Source of the DNA: Nocardioides iriomotensis
Lineage (GTDB): Bacteria > Actinomycetota > Actinomycetes > Propionibacteriales > Nocardioidaceae
Length of the DNA: 64,000 bases
Reading direction: 5' to 3'
Assembly (NCBI RefSeq): GCF_004168035.1
Contig: NZ_SDPU01000032.1
Coordinates: 62,001-126,000 of the forward strand
The notes under the pieces are model-generated. The model saw nothing but the letters and a program-made list of their open reading frames with translations. It was not told where the DNA came from and did not search any database. Position numbers and translations under genes: made by a program. The stretch's first letter is position 1. Each line of letters starts with the position of its first letter. Shown piece after piece: positions 48,233 to 56,891 of this stretch.

Positions 48233-49546
48233 ATGCACGGTATGCGTGCGGCCCGCCACCTGAACCACCTCTTGCGTGGTCAAGGTTTCCGCAAGCTGTT
48301 CCTGGTGCGGGTCAGCAGCCAGCTCACGGACGGCGTGTTCCAGGTGGCGCTCGCGGCGTACGTCATCTTCTCTCCCGAGCAGCAGCCCTCGCCCTCGGCG
48401 ATCGCGGCCGCGCTGGCCGTCGTGCTGCTGCCGTTCAGCGTGCTCGGCCCGTTCGTCGGCGTGCTCCTGGACCGCTGGTCGCGGCGCCAGGTGCTCGCCT
48501 GGTCCAACTTCGTCCGGGTGGGCCTGGTGGCCCTGGTGGCCGCCGCGGTCCAGCTCGACTGGCGCGGCCCGGCGCTGTTCGGGCTGATCCTGGTCTGTCT
48601 GTCGGTGAACCGGTTCCTGCTCGCCGGCCTGTCCGCGGCGCTGCCCCACGTGGTCGAGCCCGAGGACCTGGTCACGGCCAACGCGGTCACCCCGACGGCG
48701 GGGACGCTGTCGTTCCTCGTCGGGCTGGGGCTGGGGTCGCTGGTGCGGACGGCGTACGTCGCCGCGCTCGGCCGGGTCGTCGAGCCGCACCAGTTCGACG
48801 CGAACGTGGGCGTGCTGCTCACCGCCGCCGCGCTGTACGGCGTCGCGGGCCTGCTCGCGCTGCGCATCCCGCGCGACGACCTCGGCCCGGACTACGACCC
48901 GGACCGGCCGGCCGTGCGTGAGGCGGCGCGGCACGTGGCCGCCGGTCTCGTCGACGGGCTGCGCCACCTCGGCGAGCGGCGCGCGGCGGCGTACGGCCTG
49001 GCGACGATCGGGGCGCACCGCTTCTTCTACGGCATGTCCACGGTGTCGCTGATCCTGCTGTACCGGAACTACTTCCACACCCCCGACGAGACCGACGCGG
49101 CGTTCGCCGGCCTGTCGATCGCCGTGCTGGTCAGCGGCGTCGGCTTCGTCACCGCCGCGTTCGTCACCCCGGTCGTCACCGACGTCGTCACCCAGCGCAC
49201 CTGGGTGCTCACGCTGCTCGTGACCGCGGCCGTCACGCAGGTGTTCCCGGGGGCGCTGTTCACGGAGCCGGCGCTGCTGGTGTCGGCCTTCTTCCTGGGC
49301 GTCGCCTCGCAGGGCATCAAGATCTGCGTGGACACGTTCGTGCAGACGCACGTCGACGACGCCTACCGCGGCCGGGTGTTCTCCCTGTACGACGTCATCT
49401 TCAACGTCGCCTTCGTGGCCGCGGCTGCGGTGGCGGCGGCGGTGCTGCCGCCCGACGGCAAGTCCTACGCCGTCGTCGCCGCGATCTCGGTGGGCTACCT
49501 GCTCACCGCGCTGGGCTACGCCCGGGCCGAGGGGCTGCGGGAGTAG
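48233..49546 (+). CDS. MFS transporter
   Basis: The 437-residue protein has 12 predicted helices. Visible marks are FRKLFLVRVSSQLTDGVFQVALAAYVIF at the start, the A-like motif GVLLDRWSRRQVLAWSNFVR, a central hydrophilic loop (PRDDLGPDYDPDRPAVREAARHVAAGLVDGLRHL), and EDLVTANAVTPTAGTLSFLVGLGLG. This is the MFS_3 (EntS/macrolide-efflux-like) type. ATG 48233 is chosen at the conserved N-terminus; the ORF runs ten codons further upstream. An MFS gene lies near ino1 in relatives too. The substrate is unknown. Confidence 0.9.
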   Translation: MHGMRAARHLNHLLRGQGFRKLFLVRVSSQLTDGVFQVALAAYVIFSPEQQPSPSAIAAALAVVLLPFSVLGPFVGVLLDRWSRRQVLAWSNFVRVGLVALVAAAVQLDWRGPALFGLILVCLSVNRFLLAGLSAALPHVVEPEDLVTANAVTPTAGTLSFLVGLGLGSLVRTAYVAALGRVVEPHQFDANVGVLLTAAALYGVAGLLALRIPRDDLGPDYDPDRPAVREAARHVAAGLVDGLRHLGERRAAAYGLATIGAHRFFYGMSTVSLILLYRNYFHTPDETDAAFAGLSIAVLVSGVGFVTAAFVTPVVTDVVTQRTWVLTLLVTAAVTQVFPGALFTEPALLVSAFFLGVASQGIKICVDTFVQTHVDDAYRGRVFSLYDVIFNVAFVAAAAVAAAVLPPDGKSYAVVAAISVGYLLTALGYARAEGLRE

Positions 49547-49740
49547 CGGGAGCAGCCGGACGAAATTTCCCGGAGCGGACGTATCAGGGCCGACCGGACC
49601 CGCTCCTCGCTGACGTGACCACCTCCCAGGAGCCCGCCGCCCACCCTCAGGGGCCGCGGACCCGTCGGTCACGCCGGCGTCGTGGGGGCGCGATGCCGGG
49701 GACGTCCGGCCGGCTCGTTCAGGGGGCGGCCCAGGCCGGT

Positions 49741-49778
49741 GTCCGTCGGAGCCCGCACGGGGGCGGGCTCCGGCGGAC
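49741..49778 (+). terminator. 16-bp hairpin between the MFS gene and the subtilase operon
   Basis: Bases 49741-49756 pair with 49763-49778 (15 Watson-Crick pairs and one G-U) around a 6-nt loop. It isolates the four-gene protease operon from the MFS transcript. The 341-bp gap 49547-49887 otherwise holds a possible TATCCT -10 box at 49821-49826 and no credible gene. Confidence 0.65.
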
Positions 49779-49887
49779 GGTTCTCCCACCGGAGCACTGA
49801 CGCCGGGCGCACGACGGCTTTATCCTCCGGAGCAGTCCGGTCGGGCCCGTCGAACGCAGGCCGACCATCGAGAAGAGAGCGACCGAC

Positions 49888-51591
49888 ATGCAGGAGCCCA
49901 CGTCGGGTCCGCAGCCCCCCGAGTCCGGGAGCGCGCCGGCCCGGTCGCCGTTGTCGACGACCCCGCCCTACCTGCGGGAGTACCCGCGCCAGTACCTCAA
50001 CGTCCGGGTCCTCGACCCGTTGACCGCCTACCAGGTCATGGACCAGGCCGACGTCCAGCCGTCGGCGTTCGTCGCCGACACCCTGCTGGTCCGCGGCTTC
50101 CACGAGGAGACCGCGTCGGCGCTCGCCGAGGTGGCCGCCGAGGCCGGCTTCGCGCTGCGCTGGGACCCGCGGGGGGAGCGCGAGCTCGAAGTGCTCGACG
50201 GCGCCGACCTGAGCGACGAGGAGCGCGAGCGGGTCCGCGACATCTGGGTGCGCCGGGTGCGCCTGGTCCCGGCCGACCCGCGCGACCCGGTCTTCCGGCC
50301 GATCGACACGTGGCGGCTGCTGCAGGCCTACCGGGTGAAGGTCGGCGGCCGCCGCTCGCCGCGCCACGCGGACGTCGGGCTCGAGCACCCCGCCGTCGCC
50401 GACCCGGCCACGTCCGGCCACCCGATCACGGGCGGGCACCCCATCACGGGCGGCCACCCGATCACCGGCGGGCACCCGATCACGGGTGGGCACCCCATCA
50501 CCGGTGGCCACCCCATCACCGGCGGGCACCCGATCACGGGTGGGCACGCCATCGGCCAGTACGTCGAGCCCGGCTGGGGCGGCCGGCAGCCGGTCTCCTG
50601 GCTGGGCGCCGAGCCCGCGCCGTCGTACCCGCTCGACGGGTCCGTGCCGCGCCCGGTGGTCGCGATCCTCGACACCGGCGTCGGCGAGCACGACTGGCTC
50701 GAGGGCGACGTCGTCGAGCACGACCTCGAGGTCCTCGGCCTCGAGATCGGCGTCGACCCGGCCTCCGCGCAGGGCGACCTGCTCGGCGTCAGCGACGAGA
50801 TGGTGGGCGAGCTCGACCAGGACTCCGGCCACGGCACGTTCATCGCCGGCCTCGTGCGGCAGGCCTGTCCCGAGGCGCAGATCTACGACATCCGCACCTA
50901 CGGCAACGACGGCCAGGTCGCCGAGTCCGACCTGCTCACCTGCCTGCAGCGCCTCGCGCTGCGTCAGGTCCTGGCCCGCAACGGCGTGGGCGGGTACACG
51001 CCCGTCGACGTGGTGTCGCTGTCGCTCGGCTACTACCACGAGCAGCCGGGGGACGCCGCGTTCGACCGTCTGCTGCTCGGGCCGATCCAGCTCCTCGGGC
51101 GCTACGGCGCCGCGGTCGTGGTGTCGGCCGGCAACGACGCGACGTCCCGGCCGAGCTTCCCCGCGGCCTTCGCGCCGTACGACGGGGGCATGGTGGCCGA
51201 CGACGAGCAGGTCGTGCCCGTGAGCACCGTCGGGGCGCGTAACCCCGACGGCACGATCGCGCTGTTCAGCAACGACGGCCCGTGGGTCGGCTACCTCCGG
51301 CCGGGCGCCTCGCTGGTCAGCACCTTCCCCCGCACCTACGACGCGTCCGCGAACCCCAGCCACGAGGTCGTCACGGCCGGTGGCGAGGTGCGGGCGTCCT
51401 TCGACCCGGACGACTTCTCGTCCGGCTTCGGCGTCTGGAGCGGCACGTCGTTCGCGGCGCCGGTCCTGGCCGGGGAGGTCGCGGCGGCTCTCGCGGCGGC
51501 GTACCGTTCCGGCGACACCGATCTCTCCACCAGCGCTGCGGTATCCCGGGTGCGCGCGTTGCTGCGGGGGCTGAAGGGCAGGGAGCTGTGA
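49888..51591 (+). CDS. Cytoplasmic S8 subtilase with GHPITG repeat linker
   Basis: The 567-residue protein has no signal peptide. Residues 25-170 form an uncharacterised N-terminal domain (YLREYPRQYLNVRVLDPLTAY onward). Seven GHPITG repeats (residues 177-218) and a decayed eighth follow. The subtilisin domain has Asp262 (VAILDTGVGEHDWL), His315 (DSGHGTFIAGL), Asn416 (VVSAGND) and Ser521 (SGTSFAAPVLAG), so the triad is complete. It probably acts inside the cell. It heads a four-gene operon, overlapping the sigma-factor gene by GTGA. The target is unknown; the CHAT protein, the adaptor or the sigma factor are candidates. Confidence 0.9.
   Translation: MQEPTSGPQPPESGSAPARSPLSTTPPYLREYPRQYLNVRVLDPLTAYQVMDQADVQPSAFVADTLLVRGFHEETASALAEVAAEAGFALRWDPRGERELEVLDGADLSDEERERVRDIWVRRVRLVPADPRDPVFRPIDTWRLLQAYRVKVGGRRSPRHADVGLEHPAVADPATSGHPITGGHPITGGHPITGGHPITGGHPITGGHPITGGHPITGGHAIGQYVEPGWGGRQPVSWLGAEPAPSYPLDGSVPRPVVAILDTGVGEHDWLEGDVVEHDLEVLGLEIGVDPASAQGDLLGVSDEMVGELDQDSGHGTFIAGLVRQACPEAQIYDIRTYGNDGQVAESDLLTCLQRLALRQVLARNGVGGYTPVDVVSLSLGYYHEQPGDAAFDRLLLGPIQLLGRYGAAVVVSAGNDATSRPSFPAAFAPYDGGMVADDEQVVPVSTVGARNPDGTIALFSNDGPWVGYLRPGASLVSTFPRTYDASANPSHEVVTAGGEVRASFDPDDFSSGFGVWSGTSFAAPVLAGEVAAALAAAYRSGDTDLSTSAAVSRVRALLRGLKGREL
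50416..50556 (+). repeat. Seven 18-bp tandem repeats encoding GHPITG
   Basis: Seven consecutive 18-bp units run from 50416 to 50541, followed by a partial unit that encodes GHAIG. The copies differ from each other only at synonymous positions (GGC/GGG, CCG/CCC, ACG/ACC, GGC/GGT), so all seven peptides are identical. This is a coding repeat, not a CRISPR array. Confidence 0.95.
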
Positions 51592-52208
51592 TCGCTGTGC
51601 AACCCGAAGGAATGACGCTGGTGGGCCGGGCCACCGAGGCGTTCACCCGGTTCCGCGACGGGGACCGGCCGGCGCTCGACGAGCTGGTCGCGACCGTGAC
51701 GCCGCTGCTGTGGCGCACGGTCCGGGAGACCGGTCTCGACGTGGCGGCGTCCGAGGACGTCGTCCAGACGGTGTGGCTGGCGCTGCTGCGCAAGGCGGAC
51801 TCCATCCGCGAGCCGGGCACCGTCGTGAAGTGGCTGATCACGACCGCGCGCCGCGAGGCGTGGCGGGTGTCGAAGCGGGTGCGCGCCGAGGCCGGCCGCA
51901 CCGGCGGGGTGCTCGGCGTCGACGACGAGGAGCAGCTCGACCTGCCGGAGCAGCGCGAGGCGCTGCCCGACGAGACGGTGTTCCGCACCACCGAGCAGCG
52001 CCGACTGTGGGAGCACGTCCAGCTGCTGCCGCCCCGGTGCCGCCAGCTGATCAGCGTGATCGCCTTCGCCGACCGGCCCGACTACTCCCACATCGCGGAG
52101 TCGCTGGGGATGCCGGTCGGCTCCATCGGACCGACGCGGGGCCGCTGCCTCGCCAAGCTCCGCGCCCAGCTCTCGAGCGACCCCGAGTGGGAAGGACAGC
52201 TGTCATGA
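51588..52208 (+). CDS. Sigma-70 family (ECF-like) RNA polymerase sigma factor
   Basis: The roughly 206-residue protein has sigma region 2 (FTRFRDGDRPALDELVATVTPLLWRTVRETG, SEDVVQTVWLALLRKADSIREPGTVVKWLITTARREAWRVSKR) and region 4 (LWEHVQLLPPRCRQLISVIAFADRPDYSHIAESLGMPVGSIGPTRGRCLAKL), with a charged linker between. There is no region 1 or 3, as in ECF factors. GTG 51588 overlaps the subtilase stop codon; GTG 51597 is an alternative start with better spacing from AGGGAG. Its partner may be the small protein encoded next, which starts by ATGA overlap. Confidence 0.92.
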   Translation: MIAVQPEGMTLVGRATEAFTRFRDGDRPALDELVATVTPLLWRTVRETGLDVAASEDVVQTVWLALLRKADSIREPGTVVKWLITTARREAWRVSKRVRAEAGRTGGVLGVDDEEQLDLPEQREALPDETVFRTTEQRRLWEHVQLLPPRCRQLISVIAFADRPDYSHIAESLGMPVGSIGPTRGRCLAKLRAQLSSDPEWEGQLS

Positions 52209-52717
52209 ACGACGACGTCACGGGCTCCGACGCCCCCCTCGACGACAGCGACGTCGCGCTCCTGGCCCGGGTCGCGACCATGCTCGACGTGGCCGACCCG
52301 GTGCCGGCCGACCTGGTCGAGCGGGTGCAGTTCTCCCTGGCCCTCGACGAGGTGTTCGCCGAGGTCGCCGAGATGACCCGGGTGCTCGACGACGCGCTCG
52401 CGGTCCGCACCGACCTCGCCGACGCGACCCGCACCGAGACCGTCACCTTCTCCGCCGAACGGCTCACCGCGATGGTGACCCTGTCCCGCGTCGGCACCGG
52501 CCGGGTGCGGATCGACGGCTGGGTCACGCCGTCGGGCGTCCGGACGGTCGCGCTGCGCATGCAGGGCCAGGACCTCACCGTGCAGTCCGACGAGAGCGGC
52601 CGGTTCGTCGCCGACGACCTGCGCGAGGGATTCGTGCAGCTCGTCTTCCACCCGCGCGAGGGCGAGGACACCGGTGACGGCGGGGGCCTGGTGGTGACTC
52701 CGCTCTTCAAGCTGTGA
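52205..52717 (+). CDS. Small two-part protein, possible anti-sigma/adaptor or protease substrate
   Basis: The 170-residue protein has an acidic helical N-terminal part (SDVALLARVATMLDVADPVPADLVERVQFSLALDEVFAEVAEM, roughly residues 14-60). Its C-terminal part is beta-rich (VRIDGWVTPSGVRTVALRMQ, then SDESGRFVADDLREGFVQLVFHP), like a carboxypeptidase-regulatory-like or transthyretin-type module. It has no membrane helix and no zinc-finger motif. Its place between the sigma factor and the CHAT protease, with an ATGA overlap, suggests that it binds the sigma factor and may be cleaved by a protease. Both points are inference. Confidence 0.75.
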   Translation: MNDDVTGSDAPLDDSDVALLARVATMLDVADPVPADLVERVQFSLALDEVFAEVAEMTRVLDDALAVRTDLADATRTETVTFSAERLTAMVTLSRVGTGRVRIDGWVTPSGVRTVALRMQGQDLTVQSDESGRFVADDLREGFVQLVFHPREGEDTGDGGGLVVTPLFKL

Positions 52718-52731
52718 GCGCCACGTTGCTG

Positions 52732-52737
52732 TAGTTT
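52732..52737 (+). promoter_or_regulatory. Putative -10 box (TAGTTT) for the CHAT gene
   Basis: TAGTTT is followed by 6 nt and GTG 52744, the same layout as other leaderless starts in the window. It would give the CHAT gene a promoter of its own inside the operon. Confidence 0.4.
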
Positions 52738-52743
52738 TCCCGG

Positions 52744-55395
52744 GTGGCGTCGGCGCGGGACGGGAACCCGACCCCCCTCCTCAGCTCGACATCCGGTCGT
52801 CGGTCGGGTGTCGCGCTCGACGCTGCCGTCCTCGACGCCGAGATCGAGCTGGCCCTCGCGAAGTTCCGTGACGGCCGACCCGCGGTCGCGACCCAGATGC
52901 TCAAGGGTGTCCGGCGCAAGGCCGAGAAGCTCCCGCCCGAGCCGGCCGTGCGCAGCGTGGTCGCCCGCACCCTGGTCAGCGAGGCGGCGCCGTACTTCGA
53001 CATGTCCGGCGACCTGCCGGGCGCGCTCGCGCTGATCGACGAGGCCGAGGCGATCGCGACCGTGGTCGCGAGCCCGGTGCTGTCCGCGAAGGTCGCCGGG
53101 CAGCGGGCCCTCGTCGTGCTGCGGTCCGGCGACACCGAACGCGCGCTCGCGCTGTTCGACGTCGCGGCCGGGCTGATCGACGGGGCGGCGCCGCGCGACC
53201 GCGCGCTGATCATGCTCAACCGCGGCGTGCTGCACCTCGAGCACGCACACCTGGCGCAGGCCGAGCAGGACCTGGAGCGGTCGGCGATCTTCTCCGAGGA
53301 GGCCGGCGACGAGCGGCTGGCCGGGATGGCCACGCACAACCTCGGGTACGTCGACTTCCTGGCCGGCCGGATCCCCCGCGCGCTGGCGGCGTACGAGAAG
53401 GCGGCGGCCAGCGTGCCACGCGGAGCCCACCCGGCGATGCTGCTGGACCGGGCACGTGCGCTGCGCGAGGCCGGGCTGCTCGGCGAGGCCGACGCGCTGC
53501 TCGCCCAGGGCGCCGTCGACGGCCGCGCGGACCGGCTGTACCAGGAGGTCGGCGAGATCGAGCTGCTCCGCGCCGAGTGCGCCCTGGCCCAGGACGACCC
53601 GCCTGCGGCCCGCCGCCTCGCCGGGTCGGCCGCGCGCCGGTTCGCCAAGCGTGGCAACGAGCGCTGGGAGCGCAAGGCGCAGCTGCTGGTGCTCCGCGCC
53701 GAGCAGGTCGCGGCGACGAGCGCGCGCAGGGTGCGCGCGCTGCCGGCGCTGGCCGGCCGCGCCGAGGCCTTCGCCGCCCGGTGCCGCAGCGAGTCCCGCG
53801 ACGACCTGGCCCGCACCGCCGACCTGCTCGCGGCCGCCTGCCGCCTGCACGCCGGCCAGACCCTCGACGCGGCACCCCGGCTGCACCCCGGCGACCCGCT
53901 GCCGCTCCGGCTGCTCACCCACGAGGTGCGGGCGCTGCGCACGGCCCGGGCCGGCGACGACGCCAAGGCACTGGCCGAGGTCCGGCGCGGCCTGGCGGAG
54001 CTCGGGTCGTTCCAGCGCACGTTCGGGTCGCTCGACCTCCGCACCGCCGGGGCGGTGCACGGTGTCGCGCTCGCCCGGCTCGGGCTCGACCTCGCGGTCC
54101 GGCGCGACAAGCCGGCCGGCGTCGTCGAGATGGTCGAGCACGCCCGCGCGGTGTCCAGCCGGCTGCCGCAGCTGCGCCCGCCGCGCGACGCCGACACCGC
54201 CCGGTTGCTCGCCGAGCTGCGCGGCGTCGAGGAGGACGCCCGCCGCCTCGAGGGCGACCCCGAGGCCGCCGGCCAGGTCGCCCGGCTGCGCCAGCGCGCC
54301 GCGCAGCTGCAGCGCGACGTCCGCGCCCGGGCGTGGGAGATCGAGGGCGACTCCGACGACCGGGCCGGCGAGGCGACTTCCGACGCGCCGCGGCTGGCCG
54401 ACCTGCGCGCGGCGGTCGACGCGTCCGGGACGCCGTTCGTCAGCTACGCCCTGCACGGCGACACCTGGGTCGCGGTGCTCGTCCGGCGCGACGGCGCCCG
54501 GCTGGCCGTGGCGGCGCCCGCCGACGAGGTGGCCGGGCTGGTGCGCCGGGTCCGGGCCGACCTCGACGCCGCGGCCACCCCGCACGTCCCGGAGGCGATC
54601 GCCGCCTCGATCCGCGGCAGCCTCGACAGCGGCCTGGCCCGGCTCGACGCGCTGCTCGTCGCGCCCCTCCGTGTCGACGGCGAGCCGCTCGTCGTGTCCG
54701 CGGCGGGACCGCTCGCCGTGCTCCCGTGGCCGCTGCTGCCCTCCCGCCTCGGCGTACCGACGGTGGTGACGCCGGGGGCAGGCACCTGGCTCCGCGCGCG
54801 TACGGCGACCCGCCCCACGCGACCGGCCGTCACCGCGCTCGCCGGCCCGGGCCTGCACGAGTCCGAGAAGGAGGCGCGCGACGTCGCCGGCACCTGGGCC
54901 GCGCCGCAGGGCGACGCCGACCTGCTGGTGGCCGACGACGCCACCACCGCGGCGGCCCGCGCGGCCCTCGCCCGGTCCGACCTGATGCACGTCGCGGCGC
55001 ACGGCACGCACCGCGCCGACAGCCCGCTGTTCAGCTCGGTCCGGCTGAGCGACGGACCGCTCTACGCCTACGAGCTCGACCCCGACGAGGGCGTCCCGTC
55101 CTGCGTGACGCTCTCCGCCTGCGAGGCCGGCCTGGCCACCCTGCGTCCCGGCGACGAGGGGCTCGGCCTCACCCACGTGCTGCTGCACGTCGGCGTCGCG
55201 TCCGTCGTCGCGGGGGTGGCGCGGGTGCGCGACGACGTCGCCGCCGCCGTCATGCGCGACGTCCACCGCGCGATGGCCGCCGGCGCGTCCTCGGCCGAGG
55301 CGCTCGCGGCGGCGCAGGCCGCCCACGCGCAGGAGGCGGCCGCGGGGTCGCCGCTGCCGCCCGCCCCGTTCGTCACGTTCGGCGCCCCCTGGTAG
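52744..55395 (+). CDS. CHAT-domain caspase-like protease with TPR-like helical repeats
   Basis: The 883-residue protein has about 560 residues of TPR-like helical repeats (for example GDLPGALALIDEAEAIATVV, MLNRGVLHLEHAHLAQAEQDLERS, MATHNLGYVDFLAGRIPRALAAYEKAAA), and a C-terminal CHAT domain. The peptidase dyad is intact: His753 in MHVAAHGTHRADSPLF and Cys793 in VTLSACEAGLATLRPGDEGLGL. CHAT enzymes are caspase-like cysteine proteases; TPR-CHAT of type III-E CRISPR and gasdermin-linked proteases are known relatives. It follows the adaptor gene by 26 nt. The helical repeats probably recognise the substrate or trigger. Confidence 0.92.
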   Translation: MASARDGNPTPLLSSTSGRRSGVALDAAVLDAEIELALAKFRDGRPAVATQMLKGVRRKAEKLPPEPAVRSVVARTLVSEAAPYFDMSGDLPGALALIDEAEAIATVVASPVLSAKVAGQRALVVLRSGDTERALALFDVAAGLIDGAAPRDRALIMLNRGVLHLEHAHLAQAEQDLERSAIFSEEAGDERLAGMATHNLGYVDFLAGRIPRALAAYEKAAASVPRGAHPAMLLDRARALREAGLLGEADALLAQGAVDGRADRLYQEVGEIELLRAECALAQDDPPAARRLAGSAARRFAKRGNERWERKAQLLVLRAEQVAATSARRVRALPALAGRAEAFAARCRSESRDDLARTADLLAAACRLHAGQTLDAAPRLHPGDPLPLRLLTHEVRALRTARAGDDAKALAEVRRGLAELGSFQRTFGSLDLRTAGAVHGVALARLGLDLAVRRDKPAGVVEMVEHARAVSSRLPQLRPPRDADTARLLAELRGVEEDARRLEGDPEAAGQVARLRQRAAQLQRDVRARAWEIEGDSDDRAGEATSDAPRLADLRAAVDASGTPFVSYALHGDTWVAVLVRRDGARLAVAAPADEVAGLVRRVRADLDAAATPHVPEAIAASIRGSLDSGLARLDALLVAPLRVDGEPLVVSAAGPLAVLPWPLLPSRLGVPTVVTPGAGTWLRARTATRPTRPAVTALAGPGLHESEKEARDVAGTWAAPQGDADLLVADDATTAAARAALARSDLMHVAAHGTHRADSPLFSSVRLSDGPLYAYELDPDEGVPSCVTLSACEAGLATLRPGDEGLGLTHVLLHVGVASVVAGVARVRDDVAAAVMRDVHRAMAAGASSAEALAAAQAAHAQEAAAGSPLPPAPFVTFGAPW

Positions 55396-55398
55396 CCG

Positions 55399-55455
55399 CG
55401 AGAGGCCAGTTCCCCACCGGTCCTGCCGGCGTGTCGTGCGCGAAGTGGCCTCTCG
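55399..55455 (+). terminator. 14-bp hairpin behind the CHAT gene, repeat-related
   Basis: Bases 55399-55412 pair with 55442-55455 at 13 of 14 positions around a 29-nt loop, beginning 4 nt after the CHAT stop codon. The stem core GCGAGAGGCCA and its partner AGTGGCCTCTCG are shared with the hairpin behind ino1. Confidence 0.7.
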
Positions 55456-55511
55456 ACCTCCTCCCGACGGTCCTTGACGGCCCGGCGCATGCTGGGGCCA
55501 GGAGGTGCGAG

Positions 55512-56153
55512 ATGAGGATCGCGGTACTGGGCACGGGGGTGGCGGGTCGCACGGTCGCCGGTCGGCTGGCCGAGCTGGGTCACGACGTGCGGCACGGCAC
55601 GCGCGACCCGGCGGCGACGCGGGGGCGGGAGGACTGGTCCGACGTACCGGGGACGACGCTGGCGACGTTCGCCGACGCCGTCGCGGACGCCGACCTGGTC
55701 GTCAACGCGAGCAACGGCATGGCGTCGCTGGAGGTGCTGGCGACGGTCGCGGAGCAGCTGGCCGGGAAGGTGCTGCTCGACCTGGCGAACCCGCTGGACT
55801 TCAGCCAGGGCTTCCCGCCCTCGCTGTCGGTGAGCAACACCGACTCGCTGGCCGAGCAGATCCAGCGCGCGCACCCGGACGTCCGGGTCGTGAAGGCGCT
55901 GAACACCATGAACGCCGGGCTGATGGTGCACCCGGAGACGCTGGCGGACGCCGACCACACGGTGTTCGTGTGCGGCGACGACGAGGGCGCGAAGGCGACC
56001 GTGACGGCGCTGCTCCACGAGCTCGGGCACACCGACGTGCTGGACCTCGGCGGCCTCGACGGCGCCCGCGGCACCGAGATGGTGCTGCCGCTGTGGGTGC
56101 GGCTGATGCAGCAGCTCGGAACCGTGCACTTCCAGCTCAAGGTCGTGCGCTGA
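55512..56153 (+). CDS. F420-dependent NADP oxidoreductase-like protein
   Basis: The 213-residue protein starts MRIAVLGTGVAGRTVAGRLA, a Rossmann nucleotide site, and has DADLVVNASNGMASLEVL, KVLLDLANPLDFSQGFPPSL, VVKALNTMNAGLMVHP and a C-terminal GTEMVLPLWVRLMQQLGTVHFQLKVVR. This matches NADPH-dependent F420 reductase-like proteins, although many paralogues have other substrates. AGGAGGTGCGAG before ATG 55512 is a near-perfect ribosome site. It stands after the CHAT-gene terminator, so it is not part of that operon. Confidence 0.88.
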   Translation: MRIAVLGTGVAGRTVAGRLAELGHDVRHGTRDPAATRGREDWSDVPGTTLATFADAVADADLVVNASNGMASLEVLATVAEQLAGKVLLDLANPLDFSQGFPPSLSVSNTDSLAEQIQRAHPDVRVVKALNTMNAGLMVHPETLADADHTVFVCGDDEGAKATVTALLHELGHTDVLDLGGLDGARGTEMVLPLWVRLMQQLGTVHFQLKVVR

Positions 56154-56180: not shown

Positions 56181-56891
56181 TCAGGAGAAGAGGTCGCCGA
56201 TGACGGAGCCGCCGGACGAGGAGCCGCTGCCGCTCGACGGCGCGACGAACTCGTAGGGCTGGACGACGACGAAGCCGGGGCCGTGGAAGGCGTACTGGAA
56301 CGCCTCGCCGGAGCCGCCGCGCAGCATCGACTTCACGTTCATCGACGACACGACGTTCGGCACGAGATTCGCCGACCAGGCGACGGCCGCCTGCACGTCC
56401 ACGTACGTCGGCTGCTGGGCGCAGTCGAGGACGACCGGCTTCCCGACCGTGCAGAGCGCGGCGGTGCCGGTGCCGGAGATCGTCGTGTTGAACAGGCCGC
56501 CGGCCATCATGCCCGCGCCCTTGACCCGGTTGATGTCCCACGACATCGCCGCGTCGAAGGCCAGCAGGTTGCGGCCGTTGACGCTGATCGCGTCGCCGTC
56601 GAGCTCGACGAGGTAGACGTAGCCGCCCTCGTTGGCGAAGAACACCTCACCCTGGCCGGACACGCGCATCAGCGGCATGTCCTCGGAGGTGAGCACCTTC
56701 TTCAGCAGCTTCCCGACGGAGCCGGACTTCTCGTGGTCGAACCGGACCTGGCCCTGGAAGGCGACCATCGCGCCCTTGACCGCCAGCACGTCGTCGCCGA
56801 GGCTCACCCGCAGCATCTGGGTGTTCTGCAAGCCGAACCGGCCGGCGCCCTGCACCTCGAGGTTGGACTGCTCGAACAGCTCGCTTCGCAT
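56181..56891 (-). CDS. AIM24 family protein
   Basis: The 236-residue protein shows the AIM24 beta-stack pattern: LRVSLGDDVLAVKGAMVAFQGQVRF, MRVSGQGEVFFANEGGYVYLVELDGDAISVNGRNLLAFDAAMSW, GGLFNTTISGTGTAALCTVGKPVVLD. It ends in a Ser/Gly-rich tail. AIM24-like proteins are widespread and cytoplasmic in bacteria, with no known reaction; the yeast relative affects mitochondrial architecture. It is convergent with the F420-type gene. A TACGAT -10 box at 56898-56903 lies 6 nt before ATG 56891. Confidence 0.9.
   Translation of the reverse strand: MRSELFEQSNLEVQGAGRFGLQNTQMLRVSLGDDVLAVKGAMVAFQGQVRFDHEKSGSVGKLLKKVLTSEDMPLMRVSGQGEVFFANEGGYVYLVELDGDAISVNGRNLLAFDAAMSWDINRVKGAGMMAGGLFNTTISGTGTAALCTVGKPVVLDCAQQPTYVDVQAAVAWSANLVPNVVSSMNVKSMLRGGSGEAFQYAFHGPGFVVVQPYEFVAPSSGSGSSSGGSVIGDLFS

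Follow-up and report, generated by a model that had tools for sequence, protein, structure and literature searches.

A peptide word array in a putative pro-subtilisin and its co-change with a TPR-CHAT protease in an ECF54-type operon of Nocardioides iriomotensis

The window analysed here is a 64,000-nt stretch of Nocardioides iriomotensis DNA (assembly GCF_004168035.1, contig NZ_SDPU01000032.1, positions 62,001 to 126,000 of the forward strand). It carries an operon of four genes, SUB, SIG, ADP and CHAT, encoding a subtilase, an extracytoplasmic function (ECF)-type sigma factor, a 170-residue protein and a CHAT protease with tetratricopeptide repeats (TPR). A tandem array of a short peptide word was found in the SUB linker, and among close relatives of the operon the N-terminal segment of CHAT changed together with this word. 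The features are listed below; G, L and C numbers are our handles for genomes, loci and contigs.

The operon and its peptide array

49581-49607 (+): operon promoter of the class GTATCA-N16-CTCCT
49741-49778 (+): leader hairpin between the promoter and the first start codon, −38.5 kcal/mol, z −3.8
49888-51591 (+): SUB, S8 protease, candidate cytoplasmic pro-subtilisin (prodomain, array linker, S8 domain); Pfam Peptidase_S8, E 2.3e-17
50416-50541 (+): array of seven exact GHPITG words, SUB residues 177-218
51588-52208 (+): SIG, ECF-type sigma factor; GTG start, 4-nt overlap with SUB; Pfam Sigma70_r2, 2.2e-8
52205-52717 (+): ADP, third protein of 170 residues, candidate soluble anti-sigma factor; 4-nt overlap with SIG
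52744-55395 (+): CHAT, TPR-CHAT protease; 26-nt gap after ADP; Pfam CHAT, 2e-22, 80.4 bits (cut-off 24)
52852-53448 (+): CHAT residues 37-235, N-terminal TPR, candidate word reader by its co-variation with the word and a profile that matches TPR structures
55399-55455 (+): hairpin 3′ of CHAT, possible terminator, −32 kcal/mol, z −3.4

The four genes lie at the place and on the strand given in the initial annotation, with the same overlaps and gap. That annotation had also bounded the operon by the two hairpins. Both fold well, but the one at 49741 is not an operon border because the conserved promoter at 49581 lies 5′ of it. An Rfam scan of 49450-55600 returned nothing at the gathering score.

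The protein assignments of the initial annotation held up. The complete triad of SUB (D262/H315/N416/S521) was identical in 34 of 34 aligned sequences, and no signal peptide was seen by eye. From residue 56/57 to its end, the predicted model of SUB aligned with PCSK9 and pro-subtilisins, including unprocessed pro-subtilisin E. On this model, SUB is a predicted pro-subtilisin, with a prodomain and an S8 domain bearing Asp-His-Ser. The predicted local distance difference test score (pLDDT) was below 50 for residues 171-237, placing the array within a linker, modelled as disordered, that joins the prodomain to the catalytic domain. SIG matched the NCBIfam ECF sigma factor model TIGR02937 (sigma70-ECF) with 59.6 bits against a cut-off of 42.9. 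ADP, described earlier as helical plus beta, was modelled as two helices and a beta-sandwich (pLDDT 85.8). It had no Pfam match above cut-off; CarboxypepD_reg matched 4 of 31 ADP members weakly (best E 0.0024), the window protein not being among them. The CHAT dyad, H753 and C793, was identical in 29 of 35 sequences and the other six were gapped there, such that all 29 sequences covering the site had His and Cys. The N-terminal part of the CHAT profile matched TPR structures in the PDB.

The gene set is conserved. At E 1e-20, 37 of 120 genomes from the family had a SUB match; at E 1e-40, the order gave 90 of 391 and the phylum 9 of 396, each count including the own genome. In the stretches around these matches, SIG, ADP and CHAT lay near SUB on the same strand in 111 of 121 cases, bearing out the earlier expectation that the four families co-occur in other genomes. 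Three of the ten incomplete loci lacked CHAT (L221, L158 and L066, with CHAT ∼25 kb off in L066), four were SUB-CHAT pairs (L143, L146, L179, L202), one lacked ADP (L172) and two were second SUB copies arising from tandem duplication (L213, L217). The gene order was SIG-ADP-SUB-CHAT in 63 complete loci, SUB-SIG-ADP-CHAT in 45 and another in three. SIG adjoined ADP in 108 of the 111, an adjacency that would fit a regulator pair. A scan of named genomes, limited to the best 80 of at least 467 loci, added 59 loci outside the first set, 56 of them with all four genes. These include, among others, Cellulomonas, Cellulosimicrobium, Oerskovia, Isoptericola, Microbacterium and Klenkia. A second family with the operon probably includes Microlunatus.

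The initial annotation did not describe the array. A tandem peptide array occupied the same position of SUB in 119 of 121 relatives and in 58 of the 59 further loci, imperfect arrays included. The words mostly differed between relatives, with periods of 5 to 11 residues, mostly 6. Our array script failed where its anchor failed or the array was interrupted, and the remainder were read by eye. The analysis of copies accordingly covered 104 arrays (515 units, 87 distinct words); the other 17 of 121 comprised five exact arrays, ten imperfect ones and two loci with none. For the further 59 loci, the script gave 54 arrays, three with spurious periods of 3 or 4. In period-6 words with a proline (n = 90), the next residue was mostly F or Y, then H or T, and the last two positions were mostly G/S/P and N/H.

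Adjacent copies differed at 900 of 1820.5 synonymous sites (proportion pS 0.494) and at 171 of 5730.5 non-synonymous sites (pN 0.030), the latter being somewhat underestimated because arrays were detected via exact repeats. The array copies are old in DNA yet held identical in protein, and the array is under selection. Close relatives carried one replacement in all copies, as in L408 (Gln) and L409 (Arg), each in three of three. Elsewhere in its own genome GHPITG did not occur, and all seven matches to a degenerate pattern fell in the array. L213 and L217 each hold two SUB-CHAT pairs in one locus, with words that differ within the locus: PFTSGG was common to both genomes and the other word was HPMYDG or HPLYDG. 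This is as expected if words insulate parallel pairs.

Co-change of the word and the CHAT N-terminus

Co-change was analysed in 145 loci with four genes and a scored word (111 words). The array was removed from SUB, and close relatives were defined by a SUB catalytic distance below 0.35. The idea of a TPR reader preceded a global test, and the segment tests on close relatives followed the negative outcome of that test, given below.

Among 76 forty-column windows over SUB, SIG, ADP and CHAT, the nine that best tracked the word all fell within CHAT columns 0-200, with r of 0.34-0.51 compared with 0.25 for the top window outside them; these columns correspond to residues 37-235 of the window CHAT. 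The same columns held 28 of the 40 best of 1488 single columns scanned. In disjoint genome pairs, divergence of the N-terminal segment of CHAT (CHAT_N) was greater by 0.159 when words differed (median p 2e-6). The only other segment with p < 0.05 was the second half of the SUB catalytic domain (+0.047, p 0.005). Set 1 alone (96 loci) again picked CHAT 0-200, and this segment, applied to set 2 (49 loci), gave +0.115 (median p 0.022; 80% of 200 pairings below 0.05). Scanned alone, set 2 gave a noisier picture, with CHAT windows 0 and 20 at the top (0.53, 0.49).

With all segments as covariates, CHAT_N retained a partial r of 0.65 over 72 pairs and 0.54 over 337 pairs, the pairs being not independent; the next best segment reached 0.15 and 0.13, respectively. 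Mean CHAT_N distance rose from 0.297 through 0.400, 0.479, 0.531 and 0.559 to 0.566 as the number of word differences rose from 0 to 5. Over the same range the next CHAT segment went from 0.337 to at most 0.482. At six differences (three pairs) the values were 0.460 for CHAT_N and 0.397 for the next segment. A fast clock was considered as the cause of the TPR signal and rejected, as the signal stayed when set against the fastest columns of the other proteins (partial r 0.23-0.40).

Individual pairs illustrate this pattern. In two Cellulosimicrobium loci with the words PYTQPL and PYTQGL (L362 and L365), SIG and ADP were 98-99% identical overall and 90-100% identical per 30-residue block. The CHAT proteins of this pair shared 39-57% per block in their first 180 residues, 80-100% thereafter and ∼93% over the C-terminal half. 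Similarly, in one genus, probably Nocardioides, L167, L171 and L174 differ in word from L175, with CHAT_N distances of 0.37-0.38 and distances of 0.06-0.09 in the rest of CHAT. L190 and L191, which have the same word, showed a CHAT_N distance of 0.21 versus 0.43-0.47 in the rest of CHAT.

Promoter, regulon and genomic surroundings

The motif GTATC-N14-19-CTC occurred at most 250 nt 5′ of the first gene, whichever gene that was, in 85 of 111 operons; 100 shuffles averaged 1.2 and never exceeded 4. The strict form was present in 46 of 111 operons versus none in shuffles. The loose motif was found within 450 nt in 45 of the 56 complete new loci, a count made without a shuffle control. The window promoter ends 280 nt 5′ of the start codon, and its exact match in the genome is C26:111581. 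A matrix built from the other operons, with the window site left out of the training sites, scored 27.4 at 49581; the best of five shuffled windows scored 13.7 and the next site in the window 6.3.

Genome-wide, GTATCA-N14-18-CTCCT had 63 sites in 16 operon-bearing genomes (9 for a reversed-pattern control). In 16 genomes from the family that lack a SUB match it had 5 sites (control 7); two of these genomes, G006 and G067, carry a related CHAT gene. Six genomes with the order SUB-SIG-ADP-CHAT held 37 of the 63 sites (control 1), and 29 of these 37 lay away from the operon, positions being read by eye. The eight genomes with the order SIG-ADP-SUB-CHAT, G008 and G031 not counted, had few sites away from the locus: the same reading put 11 of their 14 sites near the operon. 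Sixteen SUB-bearing genomes of the second family had 61 sites, including one overlapping double count (control 15); in two of these genomes (G298, G149) SIG and ADP are not beside SUB. A CTCTT variant of the promoter was not enriched, with three matches in eight genomes (control 1), and was rejected. These data support a promoter class, and a regulon behind it, in genomes that carry the operon. SIG is the candidate sigma factor for these promoters.

Genes downstream of the sites were read in 40 stretches and 15 operon loci, and then in 53 loci covering 50 of the 61 second-family sites and the three CTCTT sites. Recurrent products were an Orn/Arg-type decarboxylase (G040, G050, G023, G327), an animal-haem-type peroxidase (G011, G033), a DyP peroxidase (G120, G298), an M6 peptidase (G008, G187), CoxG (G000, G023), an FAD-binding oxidase (G033, G023), a PASTA protein (G269, G157) and secreted proteins. 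With the exception of the secreted proteins, each recurrent product had one or more members checked against Pfam; the other members were joined by BLAST, with DyP and PASTA joined by eye. Several sites had no convincing gene (e.g. L253, L257, L262) and may be due to chance. The own genome has four other sites: three lie 5′ of a secreted protein, an RCK-type channel and a CoxG protein, and the one on C1 has no clear gene. In G023, G033 and G050, the operon has a divergently oriented HopA1-family gene as its neighbour, preceded by a separate promoter motif:

L068:4975-5604 (−): HopA1-family gene
L069:10124-10819 (+): HopA1-family gene
L070:4831-5550 (−): HopA1-family gene

Other observations concern genes at motif sites. 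A small gene of 105-109 residues follows CHAT with its own promoter motif at L086:5920-6234, L151:2588-2914 and L155:2593-2916. Two of the three were run against Pfam and gave one weak match below cut-off; the product resembles chagasin by eye only. Peroxidase and metallopeptidase genes (M4, matrixin-like, M6) lie behind motif sites in L258, L277, L284, L287 and L339. By eye, their products seem to have no signal peptides, which is odd for such enzymes.

The earlier view of the operon as an insertion agrees with its surroundings. The flanking genes are shared with G011, which has the operon between them. Judged from the spacing of the flanks, four of the six other genus members searched have an empty site: in G033 the MFS and F420-type flanks are ∼0.7 kb apart with no operon match in between, and in G046, G055 and G068 the MFS and AIM24 genes are within ∼0.1-0.7 kb of each other. 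For G062, the remaining genome, neither the operon nor an empty site was seen in the flank retrieved. In the window, an AIM24 gene lies just past the operon at 56181-56891 (−). In G050, an AIM24 gene located elsewhere (L271:3486-4220) has the promoter motif in front.

A related but distinct system occurs in L098-L101 (genomes G028, G119, G062 and G095), where CHAT is accompanied by a divergent subtilase on the opposite strand without a linker array. Two of these four loci also have SIG and ADP relatives, and the L101 subtilase has a DPDR repeat at its N-terminus. A second gene set in the own genome was considered at L084 (C47:61000-80000) and rejected, as no SUB, SIG or ADP match was found there; L084 holds two further CHAT genes ∼4 kb apart.

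Proposed mechanism and relation to known systems

The anatomy of the locus, in which a putative zymogen with an array is combined with a second protease, a sigma factor with a candidate regulator and autoregulation through a promoter class of its own, supports a proteolytic switch. In the mechanism we propose, the N-terminal TPR of CHAT would dock on the words in the disordered linker of a cytoplasmic pro-subtilisin. Each lineage would have its own word and a matching TPR, keeping the SUB-CHAT pair private. On a trigger, one protease would activate the other; in the simplest case, CHAT would cut the linker and the subtilase would be freed. Proteolysis would then remove ADP, a candidate soluble anti-sigma factor, and release SIG to transcribe, from GTATCA-N16/17-CTCCT promoters, both the operon that encodes it and a small regulon. 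We assign this mechanism, as a whole, a probability of about 0.5. Judging from the co-variation, docking of the CHAT TPR is the most likely role of the array.

A more pointed version is that the locus is a polymorphic lock and key: the hypervariable CHAT TPR would read only the word of its own lineage, and word and reader would evolve as a pair while the remainder of the locus stayed nearly the same, much as in allorecognition or an arms race, gating an ECF sigma regulon. This version is tentative, falling short of an even chance.

Several results weigh against word reading by the CHAT TPR or against other parts of the proposed mechanism. The global test, a partial Mantel over 84 loci with whole CHAT, was negative (partial r −0.16), and the word/TPR signal was visible among close relatives only. 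In set 2 alone, SUB windows (r 0.47, 0.41) and CHAT column 420 (0.40) ranked near the top. Two pairs sharing a word were exceptions in their CHAT_N distances (0.31 for L402/L423 and 0.47 for L401/L409). Of four clusters of closely related loci, two showed more TPR divergence relative to SUB when the word changed and the other two showed no difference. No array was evident by eye in L204, L209 or L358, and a fold search with ADP gave nothing below E 0.001. In loci with SUB and CHAT adjacent, the second SUB catalytic half co-varies with the word as well (+0.058, p 0.0034), and in loci with the genes apart the CHAT_N effect is not significant (+0.041, p 0.23; ∼8 differing and 4 same-word pairs).

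The last two results are what would be expected if word and CHAT N-terminus changed together solely by recombination of a contiguous DNA block, from SUB to the start of CHAT, the array being a structural linker that nothing specifically reads. Some close pairs are nearly identical in SIG, ADP and the CHAT C-terminus and differ in SUB and CHAT_N together, which also points that way. By contrast, the SUB prodomain, equally near the array, shows no co-variation (median p 0.74-0.96), CHAT_N stays far ahead with all segments competing, and same-word pairs can have CHAT_N closer than the rest of CHAT. Block exchange alone also leaves the identity among copies unexplained; as the sole cause we consider it unlikely but a serious rival. 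It is less likely still that CHAT is co-regulated without reading the array, the reader being instead a partner encoded elsewhere, the subtilase itself, with the words as multiple sites of cleavage, or foreign proteases, for which the array would act as a tripwire. The array does sit at the usual cutting place of subtilisin prodomains, and lineage-specific words would suit an outside partner or an arms race. Against this, the segment that best follows the word is the CHAT N-terminus, the SUB catalytic domain, which would need new specificity, barely changes with the word (partial r −0.09 to 0.15), and the word is found nowhere else in its own genome. It is hardly credible that the array yields many copies of a short signalling peptide, which the proteases would cut free and the TPR would sense in RRNPP-like or pheromone-like fashion: identical copies, a lineage-specific sequence and a protease and TPR protein in one operon would suit it, but no signal peptide was seen by eye, copy number goes down to 2, and no exporter or importer was identified, though none was systematically searched for.

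If the proposed TPR docking mechanism is true, ECF54-type loci would gain a directly testable mechanism, namely which protease reads what, with swappable words as a specificity code. Rapid co-diversification, within one signalling operon, of a TPR reader and the repeated peptide that it recognises would be unusual in bacteria, and candidate drivers would be self-recognition, insulation of parallel systems and escape from inhibitors. With the promoter motif, the regulon can be searched for across many actinobacterial genomes.

The four-gene set is not new, having been reported in outline for ECF54. According to excerpts of a 2022 review (PMC8999054), the ECF54 context conserves carboxypeptidase, subtilase and CHAT proteins, and the model sigma factor of the group is from Geodermatophilus. 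The operon described here has the same gene context, with all four genes in 111 of 121 loci, and is a candidate ECF54 locus; ADP would fit the carboxypeptidase entry. Klenkia, which carries this locus (L405, L411), presumably belongs to the same family as Geodermatophilus. Proteolytic control, as put forward in the initial annotation, is plausible and had already been proposed in print: the excerpts of PMC8999054 list proteolysis as a proposed ECF54 mechanism, and name no experimentally shown one. They also mention no array, word/TPR co-change, promoter or regulon, though the primary papers cited there (Casas-Pastor et al. 2021; Huang et al. 2015) may contain a promoter. Among the matches listed in a search of open-licence literature, a scope that excludes the primary ECF54 papers, the array, selection on its copies, the word/TPR link and the regulon were not found.

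A defence role, also suggested initially, found no support. PADLOC gave no match for SIG, ADP or CHAT and only weak ones for SUB (IetS, E 2e-5; generic subtilase, 0.0077). The NCBIfam IteS model scored 21.2 bits on SUB against a cut-off of 900, the Csx29 model was far under its cut-off, and the regulon genes seen were not recognisably anti-phage.

The prodomain and S8 fold of SUB are shared with PCSK9 and bacterial pro-subtilisins; the tandem word array is a feature of this SUB, arrays having not been sought in those families. In RRNPP systems, the TPR receptor binds an exported and re-imported peptide. The likeness is that the CHAT TPR would also read a short lineage-specific peptide; here the peptide is repeated within a protease linker, and no exported pheromone was seen. 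In excerpts of its description (PMC10028731), the Craspase/DiCASP type III-E CRISPR system likewise has a TPR-CHAT protease, an ECF-type sigma factor bound and inhibited by a protein, and sigma autoregulation; its CHAT protease is activated by RNA via Cas7-11 and contacts its substrate through the CHAT domain. The present operon differs in having a subtilase and matched the Csx29 model NF041237 with 17.3 bits against a cut-off of 300, no Cas7-11 search having been made. Pfam, NCBIfam and PADLOC gave no gasdermin match among the four operon proteins. The fungal HET-Q1/HET-Q2 allorecognition systems, as excerpted from PMC10989679, resemble the operon in having cytoplasmic proteases of the subtilase or CHAT type, which frequently bear TPR or other repeats, and in their tightly linked polymorphic gene pairs. 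Their target, however, is a gasdermin and their outcome cell death, whereas the operon described here carries a sigma factor instead.

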